A stretch of 64,000 bases of DNA, from NCBI RefSeq assembly GCF_014644555.1, contig NZ_BMKX01000007.1:1-64000 (forward strand), in the 5' to 3' direction. Shown piece by piece: positions 29,986 through 55,478 of the stretch. Each line of letters opens with the position of its first letter. Position 1 is the stretch's first letter. Made by a program: the position numbers and the translations under genes. The notes below the pieces were generated by a model. It worked only from the letters and a program-made list of their open reading frames with translations. It did no database searches and had not been told where the DNA came from. The DNA is from Glutamicibacter ardleyensis (GTDB lineage Bacteria; Actinomycetota; Actinomycetes; Actinomycetales; Micrococcaceae).

Positions 29986-31404
29986 CTAGCGGGCCCGCTG
30001 TAGATCCTTCTCCAGATGAGCGGCAGACAGCGCACCGAAAGCGTCACGATACTGAGCCGCTGGGTGGTTTTCTGGCAGTCTGTCTCCCCTACCGAAAACC
30101 TTCTGACGCAGGCTGCCCGGAGCGTATTCAGTCTGCGCCAATCCGCGACGTTGTAATTCGGGAAGTAGCCCCTCGATGAAGTTGTCATAGGATCCAGGCA
30201 AGATGTGGTTGATGACGTTCAATCCGTCGATACCTGCATCCTGCCATTCGAGCAGCTTCTCGGTTATCTGTTCTGGGGTTCCCACGATCTGCTGCGCCTT
30301 CGCCCGGTAATGTGCGAGGTCCCGCAAAGTTGGGTTACGTCCCGGGGTAGAAGCCAACGCGGCCTCCAACACGCCCTGAGCACCCTCCGTTTTAACTTCG
30401 CCGAGCGGCGTATCCAAGTCCAGTCCGCCCAGATCCACGCCAATGCCACCCCCGATATGCGCAATGATTGCGTGTGGATCAAGATACTGATCGTATTCGG
30501 CTTCCAAGGCCTTTGCCTCAGCCTCGGTAGAACCCACCACGAAGGACAGGCCCGCGAAGACTTTAAGGTCTTCACGGCTTCGACCGGCAGCCTGCAGATT
30601 CTGCGTCAGGCCGGCAACTTTCTTCGCCACATACTGTGGGTGCGGTGCAAAGAGGAAGGTGGCTTCGGCATGGGTTGCCGCGAACTGGCTTCCGCGCGGT
30701 GAAGAGCCCGCTTGGAAAAGGAACGGTGTGCGCTGAGCGCTCGGAAGCGCCTGGTGCGGACCGTCAATTGAATAGATTTCACCACGGTGATTGATCTTGT
30801 TAATGCGAGCCGGGTCGGCGTAGATCCCGGTTTTTTTATCAGCCTTCAACGCGTCGTCTTCCCAGGATCCTTCCCAGAGCTTGTAGGCGGCGTCCACATA
30901 TTCCTCGGCCCATCCATATCGGTCATCATGTGCCATGAGGCTTTTCGCACCAAAATTTCGGTGCGTATTTTCAAGAACACTGGTCACGATATTCCAGGCC
31001 ACTCGCCCTTGAGAGAGGTGGTCCAGGGTAGAAATCTGCCGCGCAAATTGGAACGGGTGGGATTGCACCACAGAACTAGTCATGGCCAGACCAATATCCT
31101 TGGTCGTAGCGGACAAAGCCGAAAGCAAAACCATCGGATCATGGCTAGGAATCTGCAGCCCCTTACGCGCCAGTGAGGCCCAACCACCTTCATGATCCCC
31201 ATAAAGCCCAGCCACGTCAGCAAAAAAGAGGTTGTCGAATTTAGCGTCTTCCAGCTTCTTGGCCAGATCTACCCAAAGCCCAAGTTCGTGGAAGCGGTCT
31301 TGTTGCGCGTCTGGATGACGCCACATTCCGCCAAGAATATGGCTGGAGGTGTTCATCAGGAACGCTGAAAGGATGAAACGAGGACGAGTGTCGAAAGTAC
31401 CCAA
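29986..31404 (-). CDS. NtaA/SnaA/DszA-family FMN-dependent monooxygenase (sulfur operon 1)
   Basis: Luciferase-like flavin monooxygenase of the NtaA/SnaA/DszA branch, needing reduced FMN from a separate reductase. Expected chemistry here is C-S or C-N bond cleavage of an organosulfur substrate. Conserved blocks are SHILGGMWRHPDA, FFADVAGLYG, SSVVQSHPFQFARQISTLDHLSQGRVAWNIVTS and FLFQAGSSPRGSQFAATHAEATF. The start is a TTG at 31404: GGGAG lies at the right distance inside the end of the upstream gene, the TAA of that gene is one base away, and the protein then begins MGTFDTRPRFILSAFLMNTSSH like the family (472 aa). It is last in the operon; no flavin reductase is encoded nearby. Confidence 0.88.
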   Translation of the reverse strand: MGTFDTRPRFILSAFLMNTSSHILGGMWRHPDAQQDRFHELGLWVDLAKKLEDAKFDNLFFADVAGLYGDHEGGWASLARKGLQIPSHDPMVLLSALSATTKDIGLAMTSSVVQSHPFQFARQISTLDHLSQGRVAWNIVTSVLENTHRNFGAKSLMAHDDRYGWAEEYVDAAYKLWEGSWEDDALKADKKTGIYADPARINKINHRGEIYSIDGPHQALPSAQRTPFLFQAGSSPRGSQFAATHAEATFLFAPHPQYVAKKVAGLTQNLQAAGRSREDLKVFAGLSFVVGSTEAEAKALEAEYDQYLDPHAIIAHIGGGIGVDLGGLDLDTPLGEVKTEGAQGVLEAALASTPGRNPTLRDLAHYRAKAQQIVGTPEQITEKLLEWQDAGIDGLNVINHILPGSYDNFIEGLLPELQRRGLAQTEYAPGSLRQKVFGRGDRLPENHPAAQYRDAFGALSAAHLEKDLQRAR

Positions 31405-31405
31405 T

Positions 31406-32629
31406 TTATTTTGCTCCCGTGGCGTCGCCAATTGAATTAAGACCTGTAGGGATGGTGCCGTTGATAAAGTAGTCGCCCACCGAGCGTGCTTTGAATGCAA
31501 CTGGGTTGTGCGTGGCAACAGTGCGTGCGTTACGCCAGAAGCGGTCCAGCGATTTGCTGGTGGAAACCGCCGAGGCTCCGGTAACATCAAAGAGTTCGCT
31601 GGTTGCATCCAATACAAGCTTGGGTGCCGCAACGTGTGCTTGCTGCACCGCAAGTTCCGCACGCAGATAGGCTGTCTCGTGATCAAGGTTCAATGATGGA
31701 TCATAGGCCGCGTCAAGTGCACGCGCGGCCGTGACCACGATGGATTCGGCGGCATAAACGTTGGCCGCGAGCCGTCCTACCAACTCTTGTATCTGTGGGT
31801 CGTTGCGGAACAGTTCACCCGATCCGGTGTTGAAAGTTCGGGTGCGTGTTGCCACGATACCTGCGGCTTCGTCACGTGCAGCTTTTCCGATGCCAACTAA
31901 GACTGCAAGCAAGCAGAGCTGAAAGAAGGCAGGCTCCAGGGTGGACGCCACCTTACGCTGCAGGATATTCGCATCCTCTACCGGAACATTGATGAAAATA
32001 CCCGTCCCGGTACCGGTTAACGGCTGGCCGAAACCGTCCCAGTCATCCAGGATCTCCACACCCTTGCTATGGCGATCAACAATTGCATATTGACGTCCTT
32101 CGACTCCGTCGGTGGAGGCCATGACCACCACCCAGTCGGCAAAAATCGAACCGGTCGTGTAATACTTTTCGCCGTTCAGCACCCAGCCTGCGGAGGTCTC
32201 CTTCAACCGCGTATTGGTAGTTCCTAGCGCGTTACCGCCACGCTCGGTGGCAGCGTTGCCGAAGATCTGACCTGCAAGTACTCGAGGGAACCAGCGATCC
32301 TGAAATTCTTGGGGCTGTAAGGCGATAGTTTCAACAAAAGAGAAGTGGCTACGCAGCAGATGGGCAACGTTCGAATCAGCGGCGGCAAGTTCAATCAACA
32401 AGCGGAAAAGTTGTTCGTGACTGACCGGATCACCACCATGGCTGTGTGGCACACGCAGCGTAGTGAAGCCTGAATCTTTGAGCCACCCAACCTGTTCAAA
32501 GGGAAGTACACGCTGCTGCTCACGTTGTGTGGCGCCCTCAGCAATACGCTCAAAAACCGGGTTAAACCGGTCAATCAGGCGTTGATAAGTAGCTTCGGGG
32601 CTTAAGGTTTCCGTGAAGTTAATACTCAT
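31406..32629 (-). CDS. SfnB/DszC-like acyl-CoA dehydrogenase-fold monooxygenase (sulfur operon 1)
   Basis: A flavin-dependent oxygenase with acyl-CoA dehydrogenase fold (407 aa), of the SfnB sulfur-acquisition/DszC type. DszC oxidises thioether sulfur to sulfone before DszA cleaves it. Visible blocks are LPFEQVGWLKDSGFTTLRVPHSHGG, AHLLRSHFSF, GNAATERGG, NGEKYYTTGSIFADW and DRFWRNARTVATHNPV near the end. The order DszC-like then DszA-like, one base apart, suggests sequential action. It follows the ABC ATPase by 47 bp. The natural substrate is unknown. Confidence 0.86.
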   Translation of the reverse strand: MSINFTETLSPEATYQRLIDRFNPVFERIAEGATQREQQRVLPFEQVGWLKDSGFTTLRVPHSHGGDPVSHEQLFRLLIELAAADSNVAHLLRSHFSFVETIALQPQEFQDRWFPRVLAGQIFGNAATERGGNALGTTNTRLKETSAGWVLNGEKYYTTGSIFADWVVVMASTDGVEGRQYAIVDRHSKGVEILDDWDGFGQPLTGTGTGIFINVPVEDANILQRKVASTLEPAFFQLCLLAVLVGIGKAARDEAAGIVATRTRTFNTGSGELFRNDPQIQELVGRLAANVYAAESIVVTAARALDAAYDPSLNLDHETAYLRAELAVQQAHVAAPKLVLDATSELFDVTGASAVSTSKSLDRFWRNARTVATHNPVAFKARSVGDYFINGTIPTGLNSIGDATGAK

Positions 32630-32676: not shown

Positions 32677-34296
32677 CTAGGCGCGGCGCAGGTGTTCAAG
32701 CTCGCGCAACTTCTCTCCGGGATTTGCTGCCAGCAAGGTACGCGTGTATTCGTGGGTCGGATTGGAAAATACCTGATCAACGGTTCCTGTTTCCACCAGT
32801 TCTCCTTGGCGCATTACCCCAACGTGGTGGCTGATGCGTTCGACCACGTGTAGGTCATGAGAGATAAATAAATAGGTCAATTGTTGTTCGTGCTGGAGCC
32901 GATCAAGAAGGGTGAGGATCTGTTCTTGGGTCAGCACATCCAGCGCGCTGAGCGCTTCATCAAGCACGAGAATCTTTGCCCCGCTCGCCAGCGCACGAGC
33001 AATGGCCACACGTTGGCGTTGACCGCCCGATAGTTCCGGCGAGCGCTTTTCGGCAAGTTGTGGTGCAAGATTTACTTGCCCCAGCAACTCGTTGACACGC
33101 GCTTCGCGCCAAGGGGCATCGCCAAGCTTGTAATTGCGCATCGGCTCGTCGATGATCGCGCGGACCGTTTGGCGTGGGTCCAACGCGGAGTCGGGGTTTT
33201 GATAAACCAGCTGTGCCTGACGCCAGAGCTCGTAACGTTGTTTACCGCTGATCGATGAGACATCTTCGCCGTTTACCTCGACGCTGCCCTGGCTTGATGC
33301 GAGTAGTCCCATGATGATTTTTGCGGTAGTGGATTTGCCCGATCCAGATTCTCCTACGAGTGAGAAGGTAGTTCCGCGAGCTACTTCAAAGCTGACGTGG
33401 TTCACCGCCTTATGAGCATTTGAACCACGGCCGAATTCTTTTCCGAGGTCCTTAACCCGGATGACCACGTCGTGGTTTTCGCTGAGCTCACGGCGCTGAT
33501 TGTTTGCGTAGGCCTGGTCTAGCAGAGCCTTGGTGTAGTCATTGGTGCTAGCCGAGATCAGCTCACTTACCGACCGGTCTTCGAGCACCTTGCCGCCGTT
33601 CATCACCAGGATTCGGTCGGCAATATCTGTGGCTACCGCGAGGTCATGGGTAACAAAAAGGACGGTAGTTCCCTTCTGCCTCGCAAGGGAGACAAACACT
33701 TCAAGTACAGTGCGTTGCACCGTGACATCCAGTGCGCTGGTTGGCTCATCGGCGATGAGCAACTGCGGATTCAGGGCGAAGGCGATAGCGATCAGCACTC
33801 GTTGCTTAAGTCCCCCGGATAGTTCGTGCGGGTATTGGCCCAGTCGCTGCTCTGCCCTGTCGACTCCTACGCTTGCCAGCAATTCGATGGCCTTGTCACG
33901 CCACTGTTTTTTGGGTACCGAACGTTTCGGATGCAGGCGGAACACTTCAATCAGCTGCGATCCGATGGTCTGCACCGGGTCGAGAGAGGCCCCCGGATCC
34001 TGTGGGACCAAGCCGATGCCGGCTCCACGAATCTCACGCCACTGGCCAAGATCTAGCGTGGTGACCTCGGTTCCTCCGAAGCGGATGCTGCCTGAGGTGT
34101 TGGCGTTATCTGGAAGCAGGCCAATGAGGGCCTTGGTAAGTGTGGATTTTCCGGAACCAGATTCACCAACAATCGCGACAATTTGTCCTGCGGGAATTTC
34201 TAAGTTGATACCTTGCACCGCGTGGGTTCCCTGCGCATAGCGAACAGCTAGGTCTTCGATGCGCACTACCGGGTGAGCGTGCTGCGTGGCAGTCAT
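32677..34296 (-). CDS. Peptide-type ABC transporter, fused dual ATP-binding protein
   Basis: A 539-residue protein with two complete nucleotide-binding domains, equivalent to DppD plus DppF. Domain 1 has Walker A GESGSGKST at 44-52 and an atypical signature LSGGLKQRV. Domain 2 (from about residue 275) repeats GESGSGKST and has the canonical LSGGQRQRVAIARALA. It ends with the oligopeptide-transporter C-terminal segment (PTHEYTRTLLAANPGE). It energises import through the two permeases encoded upstream. The SAM-riboswitch context points to a sulfur-containing cargo rather than general peptides. Confidence 0.92.
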   Translation of the reverse strand: MTATQHAHPVVRIEDLAVRYAQGTHAVQGINLEIPAGQIVAIVGESGSGKSTLTKALIGLLPDNANTSGSIRFGGTEVTTLDLGQWREIRGAGIGLVPQDPGASLDPVQTIGSQLIEVFRLHPKRSVPKKQWRDKAIELLASVGVDRAEQRLGQYPHELSGGLKQRVLIAIAFALNPQLLIADEPTSALDVTVQRTVLEVFVSLARQKGTTVLFVTHDLAVATDIADRILVMNGGKVLEDRSVSELISASTNDYTKALLDQAYANNQRRELSENHDVVIRVKDLGKEFGRGSNAHKAVNHVSFEVARGTTFSLVGESGSGKSTTAKIIMGLLASSQGSVEVNGEDVSSISGKQRYELWRQAQLVYQNPDSALDPRQTVRAIIDEPMRNYKLGDAPWREARVNELLGQVNLAPQLAEKRSPELSGGQRQRVAIARALASGAKILVLDEALSALDVLTQEQILTLLDRLQHEQQLTYLFISHDLHVVERISHHVGVMRQGELVETGTVDQVFSNPTHEYTRTLLAANPGEKLRELEHLRRA

Positions 34297-34335: not shown

Positions 34336-35232
34336 TTAGAAGCGGAAGGTTTTGCTGATGGCCCGGCCAAGCGTTGCGGTGAGCATGACGGCAGCAACAA
34401 TAACAAGTCCTGGAAGGGTGGTCAGCCACCAGGCCACGGTAAGGTATTGGCGCCCTTCGGATATCAGCAGCCCCCATTCGGGAGTAGGCGGTGGCGAACC
34501 GAAACCCAGAAAGCCCAGCCCGGAAATCGCTAGAATCGCCGCGCCGAGGTCTACCGCCAGGAGGGCGAGGATCGGACCGATCACGTGCGGAAGGATGTGG
34601 CGGCGCAATACGCTGAAGTAGCCACCCCCGCTCATCAAGGCCGCCTGGACAAAGTCACGTGCGCGCACCCGCAGCACCTCGGTGCGTACTAGTCGTGCGA
34701 AGGCAGCGATCGAGGCAATACCCACGCCGAGACCCAACGAGAAGGGGCCGGGTTCGGTTGCGGTAACAAGAATCAGTGCAATCAAAAACGCCGGAATCGC
34801 CAGCACGACGTCGACAAAGCGCATCGCCACCGAGTCTGCAAAACGTCCGGCGGTGGCCGCCAACAGGCCAAGTAAGCTACCGACCACACTACCGATGAGA
34901 CAGGCAAGGCCGGCCGTCATCAGGGTTTGGCTGGTTCCGTGAACCACACGGGCGTAAACGTCACGTCCCAGATGATCGGTACCGAACGGGTGTGCCGTCG
35001 AGGGCGCCGAGAGTTTCTCCTGTGGAACACCGGTAATCGGGTCCGCGCCGGTGAACAGGCCAGGCAGCAACGCCCACGCCACGAGGACCGCAAGTGGAAT
35101 GAGCACCCACCAAGCGCCCAACCACGCGCGCACCTTGCTCCGGGTTGTCGGTGTTGGCTCTGGGCGTTGTGGCGCCGTGGCTGTGGAACTCACGGTCACA
35201 TCGTTGTTAGTGCGTTCGGTCAATAGACTCAT
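34336..35232 (-). CDS. Peptide-type ABC transporter permease (DppC-like)
   Basis: Inner membrane subunit (298 aa) of the binding-protein-dependent transporter. A cytoplasmic Thr/Pro-rich N-terminus precedes the OppC-type first helix (WVLIPLAVLVAWALLPGLF) and the conserved HPFGTDHLGRDVYARVVHG. Five further helices carry the EAA-type loop GGGYFSVLRRHILPHVIGP, and the protein ends FGSPPPTPEWGLLISEGRQYL. It is the third gene of the operon, 17 bp after the DppB-like permease. Cargo is inferred from context only. Confidence 0.93.
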   Translation of the reverse strand: MSLLTERTNNDVTVSSTATAPQRPEPTPTTRSKVRAWLGAWWVLIPLAVLVAWALLPGLFTGADPITGVPQEKLSAPSTAHPFGTDHLGRDVYARVVHGTSQTLMTAGLACLIGSVVGSLLGLLAATAGRFADSVAMRFVDVVLAIPAFLIALILVTATEPGPFSLGLGVGIASIAAFARLVRTEVLRVRARDFVQAALMSGGGYFSVLRRHILPHVIGPILALLAVDLGAAILAISGLGFLGFGSPPPTPEWGLLISEGRQYLTVAWWLTTLPGLVIVAAVMLTATLGRAISKTFRF

Positions 35233-35249: not shown

Positions 35250-36206
35250 TTAGACAACTAGTGCGCGGGGCGAGCCCGCGTGGGCGGTAATGATGCGTGG
35301 ATCAAGCTTCGGATGAATCAGGTCAACGAGCAGGTTCACCACGGTGAATGCCGCAGCCGTGAGCAAGACCAGCCCTTGCACCAACGGAATATCTTGTACG
35401 GTGACCGCTTGCAACACCAACTGCCCCAAACCGGCACGGGCGAAGACGGTCTCGGTGATAACCGATCCAGCCAGCAGCGTGCCGACCGTAATACCCGCAA
35501 TGGATAGAGCCGAAGGTGCCGCATTTTTCAGGGTGTGGCGGTAGAAGATCCAGGATTCACTGGCTCCCTTAGCTCGCAGCACATCAACGAATGGCTGCCG
35601 GTTCACTTCCTGCACGCTTTTGATCAGCACCTGCGCTATGGGTGCGCTGAGGTGAATTGCTAAGACGATGATCGGCACCGCCAACGCGAGCAATGAGCCG
35701 TCGGGGAATAGGGACATCACACCGAGCTGAACAGCGAGGATCTGCAACAGCACCAACCCAAGCCAGAACACGGGAATCGAAATCATCAACGGTGGCAAGT
35801 TGAGCAACGCTTTGCGCACTGTGTTGTTGCGCGACAGGCTAGCTGCCGCGGTCAAGAGCACCGCGAGCACAATGGCCAATGCGAAGGCGCTACCGGCGAG
35901 GATCAACGTAGAGCCGATGACCTCACCGATGCGGGTGGATACCGCCGACCCCGAGGACAACGAATACCCCAAGTCCCCGGTGAATAGCCCGCCAAGCTGA
36001 TTGAGATACTGAACGATCAGCGGCTGGTCATATCCGTAGTAGGCCTTCATCTGTGCGATGGTGGCCGGATCGGCAGAGGAGTCTGCGGAAAGGAAGATTG
36101 TCACCGGGTCGTTCGGCAACGCCTGCACCGCCAGAAATACTGCGGTGTAGGCCAACAAAATCACCAGTAGTGCCTGCCCTATGCGTTTAGCGATGTATCC
36201 ACCCAT
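35250..36206 (-). CDS. Peptide-type ABC transporter permease (DppB-like)
   Basis: Membrane subunit with six predicted helices. I start at the ATG at 36206 (MGGYIAKRIGQALLVILL), preceded by AAGGAA; the frame is open ten codons upstream into the preceding gene. Family blocks include LPNDPVTIFL, GDLGYSLSSG, the EAA-type loop LRAKGASESWIFYRHTLKNAAPSALS and VITETVFARAGLGQL. It follows the binding-protein gene by 11 bp, so it is co-transcribed. Length (318 aa) is standard. Confidence 0.92.
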   Translation of the reverse strand: MGGYIAKRIGQALLVILLAYTAVFLAVQALPNDPVTIFLSADSSADPATIAQMKAYYGYDQPLIVQYLNQLGGLFTGDLGYSLSSGSAVSTRIGEVIGSTLILAGSAFALAIVLAVLLTAAASLSRNNTVRKALLNLPPLMISIPVFWLGLVLLQILAVQLGVMSLFPDGSLLALAVPIIVLAIHLSAPIAQVLIKSVQEVNRQPFVDVLRAKGASESWIFYRHTLKNAAPSALSIAGITVGTLLAGSVITETVFARAGLGQLVLQAVTVQDIPLVQGLVLLTAAAFTVVNLLVDLIHPKLDPRIITAHAGSPRALVV

Positions 36207-36217
36207 GATGTGTTTCC

Positions 36218-37855
36218 TTAACCGTTGCTCTTCCAAGCACCCTGGAAGATTGGTGCGGTGCCGGAAGTAAAGTCGATATGCGCGTCCTTATTGGCGCCGT
36301 ATACCTGCACTTCATCCCACAGCACGAGGGTCAGCGCCTTGTCGAGTACCAGCTCACGCTGTTCTTCTTCCACGAGTTTCAGGTGTTCTTCCTCGGTGGT
36401 CGCCGCCTGCTCACGAGTGAACAGGTCGTTCAGTTCTTTGTCTGCATTGAGGGTCTGGTTATTAGTGGCCGGTGCATAAACCGGGCCCAGGCCTCCATAG
36501 GCAAACTGCCTTGTTCCGAAGAATTCGATCTGGTCATCGACCATGGCGTTAGTGAGGAAAGAATTATCTGCAGCACGGTTCACCAGCTGAACACCGATCT
36601 GGCGCCACTGCTGCTCAATCAGTTCAAAAGCAGGCTTAATGACCACAGAGTTATTCGAGCTGGCTACTGTGATTTCAAGTTTCTTGCCGTCCTTTTCACG
36701 GATCCCATCCGTACCCACCTTCCAGCCAGCCTCCTCGAGCAACAACTTGGATTTTTCCGGGTCATAGCCAAGCTCTGCGGAAAGGTCCACAAAACCTGGA
36801 GCCTGATGGTTGAGGATCGAACCGGCGAGGACATAGCTGTCAGAAAGCACCGTGTCCTTCAACGCCTGCCGGTCGATACCTACCTGCAATGCCTGGCGCA
36901 CCTTCGGGTCATTCAGCTTGCCTGAGCCGATGCGTATCGCTGCGTGGTTAGTTGTCAGATCGACGCCCTGCGCGGCCAATACCTGGCCACCGCCAGCGCT
37001 GAGCACATCCTCGTCTACCGGTTGCAGCCCGCGGACCAGATCAACCTGGCCTGATTGCGCGGCACCAGCACGGTGGGCCACCTCGGGCAGGTATTTGATC
37101 ACCAACTTTTCCAGGTAGGCATCTGCCTGGTTTGCTGCGGTTTCTGGCGCCCAGGCGTAATCATCCCGGCTGGTAAAAACAACTTCTTCATCGGCTTTTT
37201 CGGATTCAAAGACAAACGGGCCGGAACCAACAATTTTCGCGATCGCTGTTTGTCCTGCGTTATCCAGCTTCAGGGTCTCCGGGGAGACTAGCCCGGCAGT
37301 GACCGAAGACGTCGCACGGAGGAAGTTAGCATCCGGGCGCTTCAGCGTCACCTTGACCTTGTTCTTGTCTACAACTTCGGAGCTTTTGTAAGCGGCGAAA
37401 TCTACGTTGGGCTGAATCTGTGCCGATTTAATGCCTAAGCCCAGGGCATCTAGGTTCTTTTGCACTGCTTTGGCGTCTAGGTCCGTGCCGTCCGAAAAAG
37501 TTACACCGTCGCGGATAGTAAAGGTGAATTCCGTTTGCGTCTTATTCGCGGTGAAGTCCGAGGCAATCCAGCCCACAACTTTCCCGGATTCAACGTCAAA
37601 GTAGGTCAACCGGTCCAGTACCGAGTTGAGCACATTGGCCTTCTCATAGAATCGTGCGGCCTGGGTCTGCCAGTTATTGATCGGGGTGACTTCCGCGAAG
37701 GTAAAGGTTCCGCCTTCCACCGGCGTTCCGCTACCTGCGGCCGTCGTAGGATCGGAGCTTTGACCCGTTGCGTTGCTTCCGCCGCAGGCTGTCAACGTTA
37801 ATCCAACTGCTGCCAGCAACGCCACGGTCTTAAGACCAAGGTTCTTATTGCGCAT
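36218..37855 (-). CDS. Peptide-type ABC transporter substrate-binding lipoprotein (family 5), sulfur operon 1
   Basis: Extracellular solute-binding lipoprotein (545 aa; lipobox LTAC, Cys24) of the DppA/OppA family. It contains FTIRDGVTFSDGTDLDAKAV, the conserved segment LNDPKVRQALQVGIDRQALKD and a C-terminal lobe ending IFQGAWKSNG. It is the first gene of a six-gene unit (binding protein, two permeases, ATPase, SfnB-like, DszA-like) of about 7.9 kb. A SAM riboswitch and a conserved promoter/operator region lie upstream, so expression should fall when SAM is plentiful. GAGAGGAA nine bases before the ATG is the ribosome-binding site, next to a small CTCGG/CCGAG hairpin. Confidence 0.92.
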   Translation of the reverse strand: MRNKNLGLKTVALLAAVGLTLTACGGSNATGQSSDPTTAAGSGTPVEGGTFTFAEVTPINNWQTQAARFYEKANVLNSVLDRLTYFDVESGKVVGWIASDFTANKTQTEFTFTIRDGVTFSDGTDLDAKAVQKNLDALGLGIKSAQIQPNVDFAAYKSSEVVDKNKVKVTLKRPDANFLRATSSVTAGLVSPETLKLDNAGQTAIAKIVGSGPFVFESEKADEEVVFTSRDDYAWAPETAANQADAYLEKLVIKYLPEVAHRAGAAQSGQVDLVRGLQPVDEDVLSAGGGQVLAAQGVDLTTNHAAIRIGSGKLNDPKVRQALQVGIDRQALKDTVLSDSYVLAGSILNHQAPGFVDLSAELGYDPEKSKLLLEEAGWKVGTDGIREKDGKKLEITVASSNNSVVIKPAFELIEQQWRQIGVQLVNRAADNSFLTNAMVDDQIEFFGTRQFAYGGLGPVYAPATNNQTLNADKELNDLFTREQAATTEEEHLKLVEEEQRELVLDKALTLVLWDEVQVYGANKDAHIDFTSGTAPIFQGAWKSNG

Positions 37856-37979
37856 TTTCTGGTGTTCCTCTCGGTAAGTTCCCGAGGATTACGCCTAGAT
37901 CCTGGCCCTACCGCAAGGTTGCGGGAAGGGAAAAGACAGACTTCTCCCCTGTGTGGACCGTTGCGAAATCTAGCAATCT

Positions 37980-38065
37980 CCATCGGTCCTGGCCTTAGCA
38001 CCGCTCCTGCTAAAGGACGGTTGCTGCGACGTCAACGAGCCAGGTCTCTCAGTCGCTCTGGATGG
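37980..38065 (-). promoter_or_regulatory. SAM riboswitch (SAM-I/SAM-IV clan) upstream of sulfur operon 1
   Basis: Read on the minus strand, CCATC (38065-38061) pairs with GATGG (37984-37980) to close P1. Inside are the S-box core pieces CTGAGAGACCTGG, TGACGTCGCAGCAACC and the GGTGCTAA segment. All of these are shared with four other elements in this window. The element lies 124 nt before the start codon. I cannot settle whether it is SAM-I or SAM-IV without a covariance model. Confidence 0.88.
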
Positions 38066-38070
38066 TTAGC

Positions 38071-38228
38071 ATTCGGTGTGTTTTCCGAATAATTCAAGTC
38101 TGTGCCCGGGGCTATGGTGTGACCAACCATGACGTCATATACGCGTCACGAAGCCATCTGCGAGCTGCTCGACACGGAAAAACGCGTCACATTCTTCTCA
38201 AGATCTCGTCATAAGTCACTTCGTGACG
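38071..38228 (-). promoter_or_regulatory. Promoter, 5' hairpin and TGACG operator blocks of sulfur operon 1
   Basis: On the minus strand the order is: distal inverted repeat CGTCA-N12-TGACG (38207-38228); proximal block with palindrome TGACGTCA plus CGTCA (38130-38148); -35 TTGGTC (38121-38126); 18-nt spacer; -10 CAGACT (38097-38102); then a 6-bp hairpin ATTCGG/CCGAAT (38071-38090) just before the riboswitch. The same order and spacings recur upstream of metN. A further CGTCA lies at 38185-38189. The promoter call is inference from this conservation. Confidence 0.6.
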
Positions 38229-38298
38229 CTGTTACAAATTATTCCTTGACGGTACTCCAAAACTGCGCGTTAATTTCAGCTGAAAAATCTTAAAAGTT

Positions 38299-38335
38299 AA
38301 GGTCAGTTCGAACCGAGATAGTTCGAACTGACCTT
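38299..38335 (-). terminator. Terminator of metNIQ
   Basis: A 15-bp perfect inverted repeat (38299-38313 and 38321-38335) has a 7-nt loop. T-rich sequence follows on the minus strand. It lies 27 bp after the metQ stop. Confidence 0.8.
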
Positions 38336-38361
38336 TCAGTTCGGCTTGGTTGCCAGATACG

Positions 38362-39273
38362 CTACTTCGCCGATACCGGAGTCAGTACACCGTGCACTAA
38401 GGGATCTTCCGTGCTTTCCAGATACTCCTGCAACCGCGGGTCGGAGAAGACCTCAATCAGTTTTGCAGCGTCAGGGGTCTTGGAGAATTTGGTACCAAAA
38501 ATTAGCTTTGAGGCGAAAGTCCTCGGTGGTTCAGGGAACAGGAGTCCTTTATCTCGACCCACTTTTCCGGCATCAAACTGTGAGACATAACCAATCGCGA
38601 CATCCACGTCGTCAAGCATGCGTGGCATGGTCATCAGCTCCGCTTCCTTCAGCTTGAATTCATGCGGATTGTCTACCACGTCAGCCATTTTGGCAGTGCG
38701 TGGTTCGATGTCTGGGTTCAGGCCGAGCAGACCTTCGCGTTCGAGCAGCCAGAGCGCCTGGCCCTGGTTCGCGACGTCATTGGGAAGTAGCAGTGTCGCC
38801 CCCTTGGGCAGTTCCTCGACCGAGCCATACCGGCTGGAGTACAACCCGAAGCCCCACTGATAGAGCTCTACGGTTGCGGTGAGATCAACACCGGCGGCCT
38901 CTGCAGACTGTTTCATGTACCACTCGTGTTCAAAAATGGTCGCATCGAATTGCCCCTCGGCCACGGCGCGGTTGGCCTGGATCGAATCCTGCAACCCAAC
39001 GGCTTCAATTTCAATTCCGTAGTCCGGTGCAATGTTCTCGGCGACGTATTTCAGTATCTGCTCTTCCCCGGCCATCGCTGGTTCGTAGTGGACCTTGAAC
39101 TTTGTCTTGCTTGGCTGATTGGCTGCGAGTGCGGGCGTAGATCGTTGCTGTACTAAAAGTGCGCCAAGTACGAGTGCCACGATGGTCGCGCAAGCGGCGA
39201 TGGTCCAGGGCAACTTGGCGGTGTTTTTGCGAAGGGTGAAGCCGTGAACGTGGCCATTGGGTGAAGTTGTCAT
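38362..39273 (-). CDS. metQ: Methionine ABC transporter substrate-binding protein MetQ (NlpA family)
   Basis: Extracytoplasmic methionine-binding protein. The ATG at 39273 (GAGAAG upstream) gives 303 residues. An N-terminal hydrophobic segment (about 22-40) is followed by the NlpA-type domain: VHYEPAMAGEEQILKYVAENI, FDATIFEHEWYM, LLLPNDVANQGQALWLLEREGL and AIGYVSQFDAGKVGRDKGL. The only lipobox-like Cys (IAAC) is in the middle of the hydrophobic stretch, so membrane anchoring by the uncleaved helix is as likely as lipidation. It is third in metN-metI-metQ. Confidence 0.9.
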   Translation of the reverse strand: MTTSPNGHVHGFTLRKNTAKLPWTIAACATIVALVLGALLVQQRSTPALAANQPSKTKFKVHYEPAMAGEEQILKYVAENIAPDYGIEIEAVGLQDSIQANRAVAEGQFDATIFEHEWYMKQSAEAAGVDLTATVELYQWGFGLYSSRYGSVEELPKGATLLLPNDVANQGQALWLLEREGLLGLNPDIEPRTAKMADVVDNPHEFKLKEAELMTMPRMLDDVDVAIGYVSQFDAGKVGRDKGLLFPEPPRTFASKLIFGTKFSKTPDAAKLIEVFSDPRLQEYLESTEDPLVHGVLTPVSAK

Positions 39274-39298
39274 GATCTTCTCGTTTGTTTGAGGGCGC

Positions 39299-39994
39299 TT
39301 AGGGGCGTGCCAGCGCACGGGCGATACGGTCGCCGAGGAATTGGACTATTTGCACGGTCACGATCAGTGCGAGGATGGTCGCAATCATGACGTTCATATC
39401 AAAACGCTGGTATCCGTAGGTCACCGCAAGATATCCGATACCACCGGCTCCGATAGTTCCGGCGATCGCCGAGTACTCGACCATGGAGATGGTGTTCAGT
39501 GTGATCGCTGAGGCAAGTGCTGGCAACGCCTCGCGTACTTGAGTGGAGCCAATGATTTGCAACGGGGATCCACCGGTCACCAAACCGACTGCAAGGTTTT
39601 CCATGGGCAGGTCGTTCAACGCGTTTTGTACTAAACGGGCGAAGAATGGAATACCCGCAATAGTCATGGGTACAACGGCAGCCCAGATGCCGATGGTAGT
39701 TCCCGTGATCCATTTGGTGAAAGGAATAATGGCAGCCATCAAGACTAGGAAGGGCAGCGAGCGGCCCATATTCACGATCCAGCTCAATGTGGCATGGCTC
39801 TGCGTGTGCGGGAAGAGGCCTCGCCTGTCGGTGTTGAACAGAGCCAGTCCCATGATGCCGCCAAAAATGATCACTAAGACCATCACGATTCCTACCATGG
39901 CCCAGGTCTCTGCGTAGGCAGGGAGCATCAGGGAACCCAGCTCACTCCACGGGGTATCTGTACCCACAGTGACGCTTTCGGTTGGAAGACTCAT
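39299..39994 (-). CDS. metI: Methionine ABC transporter permease MetI
   Basis: Membrane subunit (231 aa, five or six helices) of the D/L-methionine importer. It starts with the family-like WSELGSLMLPAYAETWAMVGIVMV and has RSLPFLVLMAAIIPFTKWITGTTIG, the EAA loop GGSPLQIIGSTQVREALPAL and the C-terminal TIGAGGIGYLAVTYGYQRFDMNVM. Its start overlaps the metN stop by 4 bp (ATGA), so translation is coupled. metQ follows after 25 bp. Confidence 0.94.
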   Translation of the reverse strand: MSLPTESVTVGTDTPWSELGSLMLPAYAETWAMVGIVMVLVIIFGGIMGLALFNTDRRGLFPHTQSHATLSWIVNMGRSLPFLVLMAAIIPFTKWITGTTIGIWAAVVPMTIAGIPFFARLVQNALNDLPMENLAVGLVTGGSPLQIIGSTQVREALPALASAITLNTISMVEYSAIAGTIGAGGIGYLAVTYGYQRFDMNVMIATILALIVTVQIVQFLGDRIARALARP

Positions 39995-41025
39995 ACCGTC
40001 ACCTCGATTCGTGTTTCACCATTGATCTTGTCTGTGCGCAACGCCTGCGAATGGGCGGTGGCGTGTAGTCCCCAACCGTCGAGTACCTCGATGGCTCGTG
40101 CTTCGCCGATACCAGATAGCCCTATTTCAACGCGGCCCAGCGTGCCTTCTTGGTGGGCTTCTACGGATCCGCCAAGCAGTGCCACCGTGGCACCATATTC
40201 GCTGCCTAATTTGGAAATCCATGAAGGATCAATCTGCGTCCCGCGGTAAGCGACGGTCAAGGCAAAGTCGTAACCGGCTGGCACCAGGTCTGGGTGCAAG
40301 GGCAAAAGCTTGGAACCAGTTACCGATTCCGGGTTTGCCACCAGTGCGCGCAGTTCGCCGTATTCGGCGATTCGGCCACCATCTAGCTGTGCCACGCGGT
40401 CGGCGATATGACGTACCACATCCATCTCGTGGGTAATCAAGATGATTGCCAGCCCGAGGTCGGTACGTAAGGAAGCGAGCAGTTCGAGGATCTGCGCAGT
40501 TGCTTCCGGGTCGAGGCCCGAGGTTGCCTCGTCGGAGAGCAGCAGTCGCGGGCGCAGGGCCAGAGCCCTAGCTATACCCACGCGTTGGCGCTGCCCACCG
40601 GAGAGTTCGCCCGGATAGGAATTGGCGCGGTCGGCCAACCCGACTCGTTCTAAAAGCTCGGCAACTCGATGTTCCATCTCATGATGGACTACTCCGAGGT
40701 TGCGCAGCGGCAACGCCACATTTTCGGCGACTGTCATGCGGCGCAGCAGAGCCGAATTCTGGAAGATCGTGCCAATGGCACGGCGTTCGGCACGCAAGGC
40801 CTTGCCTGAGAGGATCGAAAGGTCTTTGCCATCGACCAAGATCTGCCCACTGCTGGGCTTCTCCAAGAGGGAGATGCAGTGGGACAGCGTGGATTTCCCT
40901 GCGCCCGAGGGACCAACCACGGCGGTGATGCTGCCCGCTTGGACCTCCAGATCAATTCCTTTGAGGACCTGTACCCGACCCTGGGCCGTGTCGTAGTGCT
41001 TGTGTAGCTGACGGATCTCAATCAT
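39991..41025 (-). CDS. metN: Methionine ABC transporter ATP-binding protein MetN
   Basis: ATPase of the methionine importer (344 aa). Walker A is GPSGAGKS at 38-45, with LSGGQRQRVGIARALA and an ILITHEMDVVRHIADRVAQL block. From about residue 265 there is a C-terminal NIL/ACT-like domain that binds methionine and trans-inhibits transport in characterised MetNI. The ATG at 41025 begins MIEIRQLHKHY but has only GGGCCCTC before it, a poor ribosome-binding site. Instead, a short upstream reading frame with a good site ends over this start, suggesting coupled translation. A SAM riboswitch lies 149 nt upstream. Confidence 0.94.
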   Translation of the reverse strand: MIEIRQLHKHYDTAQGRVQVLKGIDLEVQAGSITAVVGPSGAGKSTLSHCISLLEKPSSGQILVDGKDLSILSGKALRAERRAIGTIFQNSALLRRMTVAENVALPLRNLGVVHHEMEHRVAELLERVGLADRANSYPGELSGGQRQRVGIARALALRPRLLLSDEATSGLDPEATAQILELLASLRTDLGLAIILITHEMDVVRHIADRVAQLDGGRIAEYGELRALVANPESVTGSKLLPLHPDLVPAGYDFALTVAYRGTQIDPSWISKLGSEYGATVALLGGSVEAHQEGTLGRVEIGLSGIGEARAIEVLDGWGLHATAHSQALRTDKINGETRIEVTV

Positions 41026-41053
41026 TTGAGGGCCCGAAGAAAGTTGTTTGCAT
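41018..41053 (-). CDS. Eleven-codon leader ORF overlapping metN start
   Basis: On the minus strand, ATG at 41053 follows GGGAG by five bases and opens an 11-residue frame (M-Q-T-T-F-F-G-P-S-N-D). Its TGA (41020-41018) lies immediately after the metN start codon. metN itself has no good Shine-Dalgarno site, so ribosomes finishing the leader could re-initiate at metN. The peptide has no Met or Cys run, so attenuation by codon starvation is not suggested. The call rests only on layout. Confidence 0.45.
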   Translation of the reverse strand: MQTTFFGPSND

Positions 41054-41174
41054 TTGTTCTCCCTGGTGCTGGCGCCGCGCAGAGCCCGAGTCAAGTTTGA
41101 GCTGCAGACTCGCAATGTAGCGGCGTGAGGCAGCTACGGAATCTTGCAGAACAGTGTTGTATCTACGGACCGCT

Positions 41175-41259
41175 CCATCGGTCCTGGCGGTAGCACCGGC
41201 CCCTCTCGGGGTGGTTGCTGCGACGTCTACGAGCCAGGTCTCTCAGTCGCTCTGGATGG
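41175..41259 (-). promoter_or_regulatory. SAM riboswitch upstream of metNIQ
   Basis: Minus strand. The P1 strands CCATC/GATGG lie at 41255-41259 and 41175-41179. CTGAGAGACCTGGCTCG, GACGTCGCAGCAACC and GGTGCTACCGCCAGGACC form the S-box core. The first 50 nt are almost identical to the element of sulfur operon 1, while the P3 loop region differs. Confidence 0.9.
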
Positions 41260-41265
41260 TTACCA

Positions 41266-41422
41266 TTCGATGTCTGAATCGAACAGTTTCAGTCTGTCCG
41301 CGAGCAGCTTCCATGAACAACCATGACGTTATAAATGCGTCATGTAGTCACCATCGGTGCTCAGCTAGCAGTAAAACGGGCCATAAATGCGGTACTCACT
41401 CGTCATATTTCGCTGAGTGACG
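41266..41422 (-). promoter_or_regulatory. Promoter, 5' hairpin and TGACG operator blocks of metNIQ
   Basis: On the minus strand: distal inverted repeat CGTCA-N12-TGACG (41401-41422), proximal TGACGTTA plus CGTCA (41324-41342), -35 TTGTTC (41315-41320), 18-nt spacer, -10 CAGACT (41291-41296), then a hairpin TTCGAT/ATCGAA (41266-41283) before the riboswitch. Compared with sulfur operon 1, block-to-block distance (75 bp) and promoter spacing are identical. The hairpin stem differs by compensating base pairs. Confidence 0.6.
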
Positions 41423-41531
41423 GCGCAAGGCGTACATCTTGACTTAAGAACTTAATTCAAACGCCATGATGATCCCCTTCAAGGGCGCAAGGCAAAAATC
41501 CTGAACAGCAAGGTAGAGAAAATTATGAGCC

Positions 41532-47174: not shown

Positions 47175-47193
47175 CAAAAGTCCTCTATTCTTT

Positions 47194-47287
47194 CCATCGG
47201 TTCTGGCTGTAGCACCGTCCCGGGCCAAAAAATGGTGGGTGGTTGCTGCGACGTCTTCGAGCCAAATCTCTCGGTCGCTCTGGATGG
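47194..47287 (-). promoter_or_regulatory. SAM riboswitch of sulfur operon 2 (translation-type layout)
   Basis: Minus strand. The P1 strands lie at 47283-47287 and 47194-47198. The core has GAGCGACCGAGAGATTTGG, GACGTCGCAGCAACC and GGTGCTACAGCCAGAACC, with a longer P3 arm. Only about 20 nt separate P1 from the start codon, and the Shine-Dalgarno AGAGGA lies directly 3' of P1. There is no room for a terminator. Confidence 0.88.
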
Positions 47288-47558
47288 TTCGTAATCATTT
47301 GTAGCCTGAGAATTACGTTGCCTTCAACCCGGCAAGTCATATTTCTTCGTGCTGGCATGACCCTTGAATTGCATCAAGGACTCCACTTATCCGGCATAGT
47401 CGAACGCCACACCCAGCGTTTCGCGATTTTTCAGCCAAATACGTTGTTGATGAAATAAAAATCGAAACATCTTGATGATGTGACGTAGTTATCGAATATT
47501 TTTCATATTACGACGGATTTGCATTGAATTCGTTCGAAAGCCTGTAATGGTCATATAA

Positions 47559-47660
47559 CCATCCCGAGCGGCCAAGAGATCTGGCTCTGTGACGCCGCAG
47601 CAACCACCACACACGATCTGTAAATAGATGTGTGGCCGGTGCTACCGCCAGGAACGATGG
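47559..47660 (+). promoter_or_regulatory. SAM riboswitch upstream of acsA
   Basis: Plus strand. CCATC (47559-47563) pairs with GATGG (47656-47660). The core has GAGCGGCCAAGAGATCTGG, TGACGCCGCAGCAACC, a P3 hairpin CACACA...TGTGTG and GGTGCTACCGCCAGGAACG. It is divergent from the switch at 47194-47287; about 270 bp of AT-rich sequence between them hold both promoters and one TGACGTAG motif at 47481. Confidence 0.86.
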
Positions 47661-47662
47661 AG

Positions 47663-47815
47663 ATGAATCATGGTTTTCATATTGCCCTGCCCCAGCTGGC
47701 TTACTCGAAGAAGTTGCTCGATGATGTGCCAGCAACTGGACACCCGCTAGCTAAACAACGCGCACGTAAGCACCGCAGGAACAGCAGCCCCAAACTTTTC
47801 AAGGAAACGCAATGA
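47663..47815 (+). CDS. Candidate 50-codon leader ORF overlapping acsA
   Basis: An open frame from the ATG at 47663, right at the 3' edge of the SAM riboswitch, encodes 50 residues with a basic C-terminal half. It ends in a TGA that overlaps the acsA ATG (ATGA, 47812-47815). GATGGAG just before it is too close to be a good ribosome-binding site, and acsA has its own AAGGAA. It resembles the metN leader in layout only. It may be chance. Confidence 0.25.
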   Translation: MNHGFHIALPQLAYSKKLLDDVPATGHPLAKQRARKHRRNSSPKLFKETQ

Positions 47816-52046: not shown

Positions 52047-52478
52047 ATGACTACATTCGGGGGAATCGAGAAGGTGCTACGCGAAGCATCCATGCGGGTC
52101 ACTCGTCCGCGCGTTGCGGTGCTTGCAGCGGTCACCGCTCACCCCCATGCGGATACCGAGACAATTATTGACGCGGTCCGCCAAGAACACCCTACGATTT
52201 CCCATCAAGCGGTGTACGACTCATTAAAACTCCTCACCACCCTGGGGCTGCTCCGTCAGATTCAACCCCACGGTCATATCGCCCGCTACGAGGCCCGCGT
52301 GGGAGATAACCATCACCACGTGGTCTGTCGTAGCTGCGGAGCATTGGCCGATGTTGACTGCGCTATTGGAGCCTCCCCGTGTCTACACGCCTCCGATGAT
52401 CACGGTTTCAGCATCGATGAGGCCGAAGTTATCTACTGGGGGCTCTGCCCAGAGTGCCAGTCAGCCAAAACAGCCTAA
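52047..52478 (+). CDS. furA: Fur-family regulator FurA
   Basis: Metal-dependent repressor (143 aa) that usually controls its own operon and katG. The winged helix covers about residues 1-80 (SHQAVYDSLKLLTTLGLL is the recognition region). The C-terminal dimer domain has HHHVVCRSCG (Cys94, Cys97) and CPEC (Cys134, Cys137) for structural zinc, plus further histidines. It lies immediately upstream of katG with a 117-bp gap. No Shine-Dalgarno site precedes it, which fits leaderless translation. It likely senses peroxide or iron. Confidence 0.92.
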   Translation: MTTFGGIEKVLREASMRVTRPRVAVLAAVTAHPHADTETIIDAVRQEHPTISHQAVYDSLKLLTTLGLLRQIQPHGHIARYEARVGDNHHHVVCRSCGALADVDCAIGASPCLHASDDHGFSIDEAEVIYWGLCPECQSAKTA

Positions 52479-52595
52479 CCAGCTAAACATTTTATTTAAA
52501 AAGAAGTACCGCAAGGAACTAACCTTCATCTTCGCGGGCCATTGCCCTGCGGACGTGAAAAATCACGCCCAATTCAGTACCAGAAGGAAAACTAT

Positions 52596-54773
52596 ATGTC
52601 AGAAACGACTGCAGGCCAGTGCCCAGTAGTAGGAGCCGGACGCGTTCACCCTACCCGGGGCAATGCGAACACCGAATGGTGGCCAAATAAGCTCAATCTG
52701 AAGGTTCTATCCAAGAACCAGGAAGCCACCAACCCGCTTGATGCCGACTTCGACTACCCAGCAGCATTCGAAGCACTGGATTTCGCAGCCGTTAAGGCCG
52801 ATATCGCCGAGCTGATGACCAAGTCCTACGACTGGTGGCCAGCAGACTTCGGTCACTACGGTCCATTCTTCATCCGCATGGCCTGGCACGCGGCAGGCAC
52901 CTACCGCTCCCACGACGGTCGCGGTGGCGCAGGCGCCGGTCAACAGCGTTTTGCACCGCTGAACTCCTGGCCAGATAACGTGAACCTGGATAAGGCACGT
53001 CGTCTGCTCTGGCCAGTAAAGAAGAAGTACGGCCAGTCGCTGTCCTGGGCCGACCTCATCATCTTGGCCGGTAACGTTTCCCTCGAAGACATGGGATTCG
53101 AAACCTTCGGTTACGGTGGCGGCCGCAAGGACGTCTGGGAAGCGGATGATGACGTGTACTGGGGCCCGGAAAAGGTCTGGCTGGAAAGCGAACGTTACAC
53201 CGGCGCACGCAACCTCGAAGCTCCGCTGGCAGCCGTCCAGATGGGCCTGATCTACGTGAACCCTGAGGGTCCAGATGGCGTTGCAGATCCTTTGGCCTCG
53301 GCCATCGACATCCGCGAAACCTTCCGCCGCATGGGCATGAACGACGAAGAAACCGTCGCACTGATCGCCGGTGGCCACACCTTCGGCAAGACCCACGGCG
53401 CCAGCGCCGAAACCCACAAGGGCGAAGACCCGGAGTCCGCTCCGCTGGAAATGCAGGGACTGGGCTGGAAGTCCGGCCACGGTACCGGCCACGGCGATGA
53501 CACCATCGGCTCAGGTCTGGAAGTGACCTGGACCTACCACCCAACCCGTTGGGACAACGAGTTCTTCCACATCCTCTTCGCGTACGAGTGGGAACTGTTC
53601 CACTCCGAGGCCGGCGCACAGCAGTGGCGTCCAAAGAACGGCGCCGGCGCCGATATGGTGCCGATGGCTCACAACCCAGCCGTGCGTCGCGAACCACGCA
53701 TGCTGACCAGTGACCTGGCCCTGCGTTTTGACCCGGTTTACGGTCCAATCTCGGAAGACTTCAAGAACAACCCAGAGAAGTTTGCGGACGCTTTCGGCCG
53801 CGCTTGGTTCAAGCTGACTCACCGCGACATGGGCCCGAAGTCCCGTTACTTCGGACCAGAAATCCCGGCAGAAGACCTAGCTTGGCAAGATCCCCTACCG
53901 GCAGCCCCTGCAGTAACCTTGGGCGCTACCGAGGTTGCGGCATTGAAGGCCCTCATCGCGCAGTCCGGCCTTTCGGTACAGCAGTTGGTTTCCACCGCAT
54001 GGAAGGCAGCTGCAAGCTTCCGTTCCTCTGATAAGCGCGGTGGCGTTAACGGTGGCCGTATCCGTTTGGAACCACAGGTCTCCTGGAGTGTGAACCAGCC
54101 AGAACAGCTCAAGGTAGTAATCGCAGTCCTTGAGCAGATCGTGGAAGAGTTTAACGCTACTTCTGCCATCAAGGCTTCCTTCGCAGACGTTGTAGTTTTG
54201 GCTGGCAACGTCGGTGTTGAGCAGGCAGCATTGGCTGCTGGCCAGCAGATTGAGGTTCCATTCACTCCGGGTCGCGTTGACGCTACCCAGGAACAGACCG
54301 ACGTGGAGCAGTTCGCTTGGTTGGAGCCAGTGTCCGACGGTTTCCGCAACTACGATTCCGAGTTCTTGAATTTGCCTCCGGAATACCTGCTCATTGACCG
54401 CGCTAACCTGTTGGGCCTCAACGCACCGGAGATGACCGTATTGCTCGGTGGTCTACGTGTATTAGGCAACAACTGGGATGGTTCGAACCACGGTGTCTTC
54501 ACCGACACCCCGGGCGCATTGACCAATGACTTCTTCGCGAACCTGATGGAACTGGGCCTTGAGTGGACCCCTGACGCCGAAGAGAAGACCTATGCAACCA
54601 CCGACGGCCGCTGGGTTGGTAGCCGCGTGGACTTGGTCTTCGGCTCAAACTCCGAGCTACGTGCATTGGCCGAGGTTTACGCCGCGGATGATGCGAAGGA
54701 GACATTTGCTACGGACTTCGCCGCAGCCTGGGCCAAGCTCATGGATGCTGACCGGTTCGACCTGCTTAAGTAA
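52596..54773 (+). CDS. katG: Catalase-peroxidase KatG
   Basis: Bifunctional haem catalase-peroxidase (725 aa) detoxifying hydrogen peroxide. The ATG at 52596 follows AGAAGGAAAAC. All key residues are present: distal R94, W97, H98; the Trp97-Tyr220-Met246 covalent adduct needed for catalase activity; proximal H261 in [10 protein letters not shown]. The C-terminal half is the normal non-catalytic duplicate. It is downstream of furA, the expected repressor. Codon use is strongly biased to C/G third positions, consistent with high expression. A terminator follows. Confidence 0.97.
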
Positions 54774-54845: not shown

Positions 54846-55478
54846 TTAAAACAGCACTGGGTCCGACTGCGTCTGTCGTTGCGGGTTTTCAAGTTCTAGT
54901 AGCTGCAGCTTGGTGGGTAATCCGCCAAGGTATCCGCCGAGCGCACCATCGGTGCGCAGGACTCTGTGGCATGGCAAGACAATCGGTAGTGGATTGGTCG
55001 CGCAGGCTGTGCCCACCGCGCGTACTGCTTTTGGTTTACCAATCTTCGCTGCCACCTGTGCGTAGCTCAGGGTCTGCCCGTAGCCGATCTGTCCCAGTTC
55101 TAATTGCACGGTTCGGCGAAATTCTGTAGATAGTCTTAGATCCAGCGGGAGCTGGAATTCGTGCCGTGTGCCAGCAAAGTATTCATCAAGCTGACGCGCT
55201 ACCCCATCGAGTTTCGCAGGTGCTTGAAGGATTCGTGGGCTCACCTTAGTCGCAAGACTTTCAAGGATATGGTCATAGCCTTCGCTTTCAAAAGCAACTC
55301 TGACCAGTCCGGCCTCGGTGCTCGCCAGCAGCAGTTTTCCAATCGGCGTATCAAACACACGGTAGGAAATGTCGGTCAGCTGTGACTTATCAGCTTCTGT
55401 TTCCAGACGCGAATGCAGTTGGGCCAGCATTGTTGTTTCCTCGGTGGTGGGGCCGGAATTCACCTTGTCAATATTCAT
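54846..55478 (-). CDS. ogt: Methylated-DNA-protein-cysteine methyltransferase
   Basis: Suicide DNA-repair protein removing O6-alkyl groups from guanine. The acceptor is Cys170 in PCHRV; an ISYRVFDTPIGKLLLAS N-terminal domain precedes the winged-helix DNA-binding segment (YGQTLSYAQVAAKIGKPKAVRAVG). About 35 N-terminal residues, acidic and polar, are extra compared with short Ogt proteins. Its start overlaps the stop of the ECF sigma gene by 4 bp (ATGA), so it is co-translated with that factor. This suggests alkylation or other stress control. Confidence 0.93.
   Translation of the reverse strand: MNIDKVNSGPTTEETTMLAQLHSRLETEADKSQLTDISYRVFDTPIGKLLLASTEAGLVRVAFESEGYDHILESLATKVSPRILQAPAKLDGVARQLDEYFAGTRHEFQLPLDLRLSTEFRRTVQLELGQIGYGQTLSYAQVAAKIGKPKAVRAVGTACATNPLPIVLPCHRVLRTDGALGGYLGGLPTKLQLLELENPQRQTQSDPVLF

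Follow-up and report, generated by a model that had tools for sequence, protein, structure and literature searches.

Two neighbouring operons of a Glutamicibacter genome carry S-adenosylmethionine (SAM) riboswitches in their leaders, and the same DNA elements recur upstream of both. Are these elements the mark of a second, protein-based control of the same genes? The stretch of DNA examined here (the window) comprises bases 1-64000 of contig C7 of the 3.94-Mb genome (G000), and holds five of the six SAM-I riboswitches that were detected in this genome using Rfam RF00162. The first operon consists of OppA/Nik-type ATP-binding cassette (ABC) genes together with SfnB-like and luciferase-like flavin enzymes (best family matches, mostly below curated cut-offs) and is called oppA below; the second is metNIQ. 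An earlier reading of the window (the original prediction) had described paired blocks upstream of both riboswitches and had proposed an activator that recognizes TGACG half-sites. We conclude that the blocks are probably operators of one sequence-specific DNA-binding protein, which would activate sulfur scavenging at transcription initiation, above the riboswitch.

The recurring elements were confirmed upstream of both SAM riboswitches (Table 1). In both promoters, CGTCA-N12-TGACG (distal block) lies at -160 relative to the riboswitch, TGACG-N9-CGTCA (proximal block) at -80 and the putative -35 and -10 boxes at -58 and -34. The two riboswitches were likewise confirmed, as both RF00162 aptamers exceeded the Rfam gathering threshold and were full length (model positions 1-108). 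The spacing of the blocks is identical in the two promoters, and the predicted value of 75 bp is only approximate: 58 bp separate the blocks, and their starts are 80 bp apart (register -160 to -80). In the oppA promoter, the outer half of the TGACCAACCATGAC repeat sits on the -35 box. The -35/-10 pattern, which was composed after the boxes had been viewed, occurred in 7 of 9 orthologous promoters. Further, in single-sequence folds most leaders of the oppA, metN1 and metN2 groups form a small hairpin after the -10 box and ahead of the SAM aptamer, with stem sequences that differ. This predicted hairpin would agree with transcripts that start right after CAGACT, without being proof of it.

When the two promoters were compared with each other, 26/31 positions were identical in the proximal block and 17/24 in the distal block, against 23/56 between the blocks, which is the background level. 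The original prediction of about 25 matches over 30 proximal positions, with drift between the blocks, was thus borne out. The same contrast between block and inter-block identity was found in genomes G010 and G012. Moreover, the inter-block value of 23/56 was no more than the 28/56 found in G001 and G007, two genomes without matching blocks. The proximal 18-mer gave two matches where 0.10 were expected, and 1 of 100 shuffles reached two. The distal pattern alone, with a spacer of 10-14, showed a weak excess (two matches, 0.55 expected; 8 of 100 shuffles reached two). Among the 18 genomes of the genus, a 25-bp proximal pattern with at most one mismatch had 14 matches, 13 of them at SAM-riboswitch promoters, and the reversed control had none. 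This pattern was composed from these and the orthologous promoters, and its promoter matches arise partly by construction; the informative part of the search is the single match away from riboswitch promoters. In the own genome, a looser proximal form with two mismatches gave four matches (two of them exact, both in these promoters) and four in the reversed control. The strict proximal pattern is specific to the genus, because 277 genomes from other genera contained no exact copy of it and it occurred in 27 scattered stretches of the species-level contig collection, 5 of which were of this genus. As a separate observation, GAGAAATATGACGTCATC lies upstream of an amino-acid/cystine-type solute-binding protein gene (judged by eye) in G004 (C1:115436-115448), a locus at which no riboswitch was found at E<=0.1.

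To place the two promoters among their relatives, RF00162 was searched at E<=0.001, which gave 116 matches in 18 of 18 genus genomes. Flanks were read for 110 (six were dropped), and these promoters were sorted by downstream gene; five of the 110 fitted no group and were counted as 'none'. TGACG/CGTCA was counted from -230 to -25 of the riboswitch and compared with 100 dinucleotide shuffles per gene group. The count exceeded all 100 shuffles in 8 of 11 gene groups, namely metZ (52; shuffle mean 9.8, maximum 19), oppA (38; 6.4, 12), SfnB (31; 5.3, 12), metN1 (20; 3.5, 10), metN2 (17; 4.9, 12), SBP2 (13; 2.0, 5), E (24; 10.3, 18) and F (16; 6.0, 13), and also in the five unassigned promoters. 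The metY group provided a clear internal negative, as TGACG/CGTCA was nearly absent there (1 in 13 promoters). The exact two-block register, which the original prediction had suggested seeking in relatives, was found in 6 of 15 oppA and metN1 promoters. All six came from G000, G010 and G012, so this form is specific to a clade of three genomes. The oppA promoter of G009 is a seventh with both blocks, in a 70-bp register, and the register was missing from the metN1 promoters of G001, G003 and G007. The complete lack of conservation that had been named in advance as evidence against the prediction was not observed, because some of the orthologous promoters do keep the element. Thus both operons do carry the module that had been ascribed to them, and it belongs to a wider set of sulfur promoters, genus-wide and, in a looser form, family-wide.

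The looser form emerged from 69 riboswitch promoters of 27 genomes and 15 other genera, part of a longer list of matches. This set was not random: 27 promoters were the best match of each genome, and 42 came from clusters chosen after the 27 had been seen. TGACG/CGTCA occurred 84 times against 40.6 expected (maximum 57 in 100 shuffles). Same-strand copies of TGAC 10 bp apart occurred 15 times against 0.65 expected, the strongest signal of all distances from 4 to 45; distances 11, 12, 24, 32, 34 and 42 also exceeded their shuffle maxima, with 3-5 counts each. When one partner of each of six divergent pairs was removed, 10 of the remaining 63 promoters held 13 TGAC-N6-TGAC repeats (shuffle mean 0.49, maximum 4 of 1000 shuffles). 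The first 27 promoters, picked before the motif was known there, had seven repeats in five promoters (mean 0.17, maximum 3 of 500), and the later 42 had eight in six (mean 0.31, maximum 3). In five further 215-bp slices taken from these loci, the counts were 3, 0, 0, 1 and 0 repeats, compared with 15. Thirteen distinct repeat segments (7 genomes, 5 genera) gave the consensus RTGACG-N4-RTGACG, with a purine before the half-sites in 12/13 and 13/13 and a G after them in 9/13 and 8/13. Across genera, the recurring element is therefore a 10-bp-phased direct repeat of TGAC. In Glutamicibacter, the exact 10-bp repeat was present in 6 of 9 oppA promoters.

We searched for RTGACG-N4-RTGACG in 10 whole genomes, which were selected because TGACG occurs in their own riboswitch promoters or in those of genus-mates, and obtained 34 matches against 11 for the reversed pattern. 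Thirty of the 34 loci were inspected, and gene type was judged by reading translations. Thirteen of the 30 lay upstream of sulfur-type genes, and six of these were riboswitch promoters already in the set. Among the seven new loci were an SfnB-like gene that has a SAM-I riboswitch (50.2 bits), a solute-binding protein gene whose SAM-I match was just below the cut-off (41.7 bits) and four genes with no riboswitch at E<=0.1, which were MetN-like, OsmC-like, rhodanese-like and a BCCT-type transporter, the last arguably a sulfur gene. At a further new locus (L241, G020:C10), a SAM-IV riboswitch of a luciferase-like monooxygenase gene (1341-1453, minus strand; RF00634, 88 bits) begins 47 nt after a GTGACG-type 10-bp repeat. 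The repeat thus precedes a different class of RNA, and therefore does not simply travel with a SAM-I cassette. The element is present, conserved in part, enriched and regularly spaced, and it is associated with sulfur genes and with SAM riboswitches of two classes.

Several results weigh against reading these sites as operators of one protein. The shuffle maximum was not exceeded in the F2 (acyl-CoA-synthetase-like) group (8 TGACG/CGTCA; mean 3.6, maximum 8) or in the metE group (4; 1.5, 5). Eight of 13 metY promoters have a 10-bp TGAC/GTCA repeat despite lacking TGACG. In TGACG-rich groups the exact 10-bp repeat was scarce (0/6 metN1, 0/17 E, 2/17 metZ and 2/9 metN2), and the short form GVGAMWTRTGACG had 15 matches in the genus against 25 for its reversal. 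Outside the genus, the exact repeat was missing from 53 of the 63 promoters and present in 7 genomes of 5 genera. Seventeen of the 30 inspected repeat loci were not upstream of sulfur-type genes, and two of them were in a ribosomal-protein gene. Over the window as a whole, neither the 10-bp repeat (3 matches, 2.14 expected) nor WTRTGACG (7 matches, 6.89 expected) was enriched, and the case therefore rests on position and on comparison between genomes. Finally, no regulator gene was found for the sites. TGACG/CGTCA occurred 0-2 times in the 300 bp upstream of 18 of the 19 LysR genes of the genome and three times upstream of the one beside metZ, and the ten OmpR-type genes had 0-1 copies in the same distance and no 10-bp repeat. 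The metY repeat, which is GGTCAcgaacGGTCA-like and lies near the promoter (in the window, upstream of 56751-56845), is possibly a variant of the same site.

Taken together, these results partly support the interpretation in the original prediction. A TGACG-built DNA element does lie upstream of promoter and riboswitch; we infer that a protein binds it, activates rather than represses and responds to sulfur, as well as the class to which this protein would belong. The regulator would read the TGAC(G) half-site as its unit. In other genera, the commonest layout is two same-strand half-sites 10 bp apart; Glutamicibacter promoters have additional half-sites as far as about 160 bp ahead of the riboswitch. 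The site nearest the promoter lies on or next to the -35 box, and the weak -10 box resembles that of activator-dependent promoters. The protein would switch the operons on, most likely under sulfur shortage, by helping RNA polymerase to initiate, and the transcript would then meet the SAM riboswitch, which could shut it down when SAM is plentiful. The genes would thus receive two inputs, a protein signal at initiation and a SAM signal in the leader. Because the half-sites form a 10-bp direct repeat, our tentative guess for the regulator is a winged-helix protein of the OmpR/PhoB type. Direct repeats with the 10-11 bp period of that type were found in the other genera when their riboswitch promoters were taken together, and in 6/9 oppA promoters; metNIQ of the window, with its TGAA half-site, and most other Glutamicibacter groups do not fit exactly. 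It is conceivable, at a similarly low level of confidence, that a family-wide activator of sulfur starvation, possibly a two-component response regulator, reads RTGACG-N4-RTGACG and, across genera, controls the uptake of organosulfur compounds and methionine in addition to the SAM-I and SAM-IV riboswitches, together with some genes that lack a riboswitch.

The same sites could instead serve a repressor that prevents initiation when sulfur is abundant; the overlap of the 10-bp repeat with the -35 box of the oppA promoter speaks for this. We regard this as unlikely, since the poor -10 boxes and the several far-upstream sites suit activation better and shut-off is already provided by the riboswitch.

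Somewhat less probable still is that a cassette of promoter plus riboswitch was copied from one operon to its neighbour by duplication or gene conversion, which would make the blocks relics and not operators. A distance of 3 kb separates the two operons, which share a strand, and the exact two-block form is confined to three genomes. Further, the two riboswitches are identical at 47 of their first 48 nt, the highest of 15 pairs in the genome (range 38-47); a shared origin of the cassettes is therefore possible, and the close likeness of the two promoters may come partly from it. Against this reading, the blocks match well above the sequence between them, a contrast repeated in G010 and G012. 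In addition, TGACG is enriched and the 10-bp repeat present at further promoters, also beyond the genus, and one copy of the repeat precedes a SAM-IV riboswitch.

Least probable of all, in our view, is that the activator is the LysR-type protein encoded beside the metZ riboswitch (G000:C2:180855-181793): its gene lies upstream of that riboswitch in 17/17 metZ-group genomes, has the most TGACG/CGTCA (three) among the LysR promoters of the genome and resembles CysB distantly, with a score far under the curated cut-off, but at E<=1e-40 just 4 of 56 family genomes gave a match to it (G058 and three from the genus), none of them among the 7 non-genus genomes that have the repeat, it stands in G058 beside DUF1852-like and methionine-synthase-like genes with no metZ seen within 1.5 kb (by eye), and its own intergenic region keeps one CGTCA in 12/17 genomes and no TGACG repeats (by eye). 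In G000 this gene is located between a DUF1852-like gene (by eye) and the metZ riboswitch. A GATATCaGGTAACTCGATAT-like dyad of the TATC-N7-GATA type, seen by eye in its intergenic region in 13/17 genomes, is perhaps that protein's own operator.

Other candidates for the activator proposed here were rejected. The AraC-type gene of a riboswitch cluster in G018 had matches in 5 of 56 genomes (E<=1e-30) and none in the Glutamicibacter genomes G000, G008 and G009. No LysR gene was found among open reading frames (ORFs) of at least 90 aa in the riboswitch clusters examined from other genera at E<=1e-4; a single weak match, in Glutamicibacter G015, looked by eye like a sugar-diacid-type regulator. 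The LysR gene divergent from metN2 in G038 had a best match of 32% identity in the own genome. Pfam was run on 20 of the 71 listed ORFs of the window, and the regulators among these were a DeoR-type gene (60015-60791) and an ECF sigma factor (55475-55972). A Fur-like regulator gene was recognized by eye at about 52050-52490 (minus strand), beside a peroxidase gene (52542-54773).

Table 1. Features of the two promoters, their operons and related sites in the window.
Feature	Position	Strand	Basis or remark
oppA operon: distal block CGTCA-N12-TGACG (-160)	38207-38228	-	sequence
oppA operon: extra ATGTGACG half-site between blocks	38185-38192	-	sequence
oppA operon: proximal block TGACG-N9-CGTCA (-80)	38130-38148	-	19-mer TGACGCGTATATGACGTCA on minus strand
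oppA operon: 10-bp direct repeat TGACCAACCATGAC, overlapping -35	38120-38133	+	repeat enriched in other genera
oppA operon: putative -35 TTGGTC	38121-38126	-	sequence
oppA operon: putative -10 CAGACT, 18 nt past -35	38097-38102	-	sequence
oppA operon: predicted short leader hairpin 5' of aptamer	38070-38091	-	single-sequence folds
oppA operon: SAM-I riboswitch aptamer	37977-38068	-	RF00162, 62.3 bits
oppA operon: peptide/nickel-type ABC solute-binding protein	36218-37855	-	TIGR04028-like, below cut-off
oppA operon: ABC permeases	35250-36236 and 34336-35232	-	family matches
oppA operon: fused ATPase	32677-34296	-	family matches
oppA operon: SfnB-like flavin enzyme	31406-32629	-	family matches
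oppA operon: luciferase-like monooxygenase	29986-31686	-	family matches
metNIQ: distal block CGTCA-N12-TGACG (-160)	41401-41422	-	sequence
metNIQ: proximal block TGACG-N9-CGTCA (-80)	41324-41342	-	19-mer TGACGCATTTATAACGTCA
metNIQ: degenerate 10-bp direct repeat TGAACAACCATGAC, overlapping -35	41314-41327	+	one half-site is TGAA
metNIQ: putative -35 TTGTTC	41315-41320	-	sequence
metNIQ: putative -10 CAGACT, 18 nt past -35	41291-41296	-	sequence
metNIQ: predicted short leader hairpin 5' of aptamer	41263-41286	-	single-sequence folds
metNIQ: SAM-I riboswitch aptamer	41172-41262	-	RF00162, 54.3 bits
metN	39991-41115 (ORF; true start probably more internal)	-	best match below curated cut-off
metI	39299-39994	-	best match below curated cut-off
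metQ	38362-39318	-	best match below curated cut-off
Related GAAATATGAC site upstream of third SAM riboswitch (47191-47290)	47336-47345	-	sequence
Related ATGTGACG site upstream of fourth SAM riboswitch (47556-47663)	47478-47485	+	sequence

The site of the third riboswitch (GAAATRTGAC) is kept in most of its orthologous group. The third (minus strand) and fourth (plus strand) riboswitches head divergent operons driven from one 265-bp intergenic region, and a divergent pair of SAM riboswitches within about 400 bp was seen in 17/18 genus genomes. The gene after the plus-strand riboswitch is acyl-CoA-synthetase-like here and in several other genomes, and an ABC ATPase in the rest. Directly after metQ, a strong, terminator-like inverted repeat (GGTCAGTTCGAAC-N7-GTTCGAACTGACC, 38301-38333, minus strand) stands between metNIQ and the promoter of the next operon.

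Scavenging of organic sulfur is common among soil actinobacteria, and with a defined operator the regulator can be traced directly, by capture on that DNA. The arrangement would also be a naturally occurring case of divided control, in which the start of transcription depends on a protein and its continuation on an RNA. In the literature searched, which left most subscription papers uncovered, we found no protein regulator of organic-sulfur scavenging in actinobacteria outside Corynebacterium; nor was a TGACG-type sulfur regulator described there. To our knowledge, no two-component response regulator has been tied to sulfur in actinobacteria.

Among the closest known systems is the McbR/CysR/SsuR network of Corynebacterium glutamicum, in which sulfur-uptake and sulfonate genes of an actinobacterium are controlled by regulatory proteins. 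The McbR palindrome is TAGAC-N6-GTCTA; with at most two mismatches, it had 14 matches in the window (11.5 expected) and none in either promoter. The CysR/SsuR consensus is given as TGAAtnnAAt in inverted repeats, and at activated promoters the sites predicted for CysR are found 3 bp upstream of the -35 box (PMC2580772). The CysR arm TGAATNNAAT, with one mismatch, was absent from the blocks of both promoters. Such matches lay in the metNIQ leader (41275-41284) and 28 bp upstream of the metNIQ distal block (41450-41459), and their number in the window was at chance level (40 against 35 expected). The Corynebacterium operators thus differ from the blocks, as no match to the CysR/SsuR consensus or the McbR site falls on them. 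This agrees with the original prediction, which knew of no named actinobacterial sulfur regulator with this exact site, and we rate the blocks as a probable new operator.

Operators of the OmpR/PhoB family (PhoB, CpxR, GlnR) consist of direct-repeat half-sites one helical turn apart, near or over the -35 box and often several per promoter. The sites described here may resemble them in their tandem half-sites one turn apart close to -35, and differ in the half-site TGAC(G), the 10-bp period and the inverted arrangements that also occur. The SAM-I (S-box, RF00162) riboswitch is the same leader element as elsewhere, whereas here its aptamers would lie below a DNA operator module, and in G020 a comparable module stands above a SAM-IV, not a SAM-I, aptamer.

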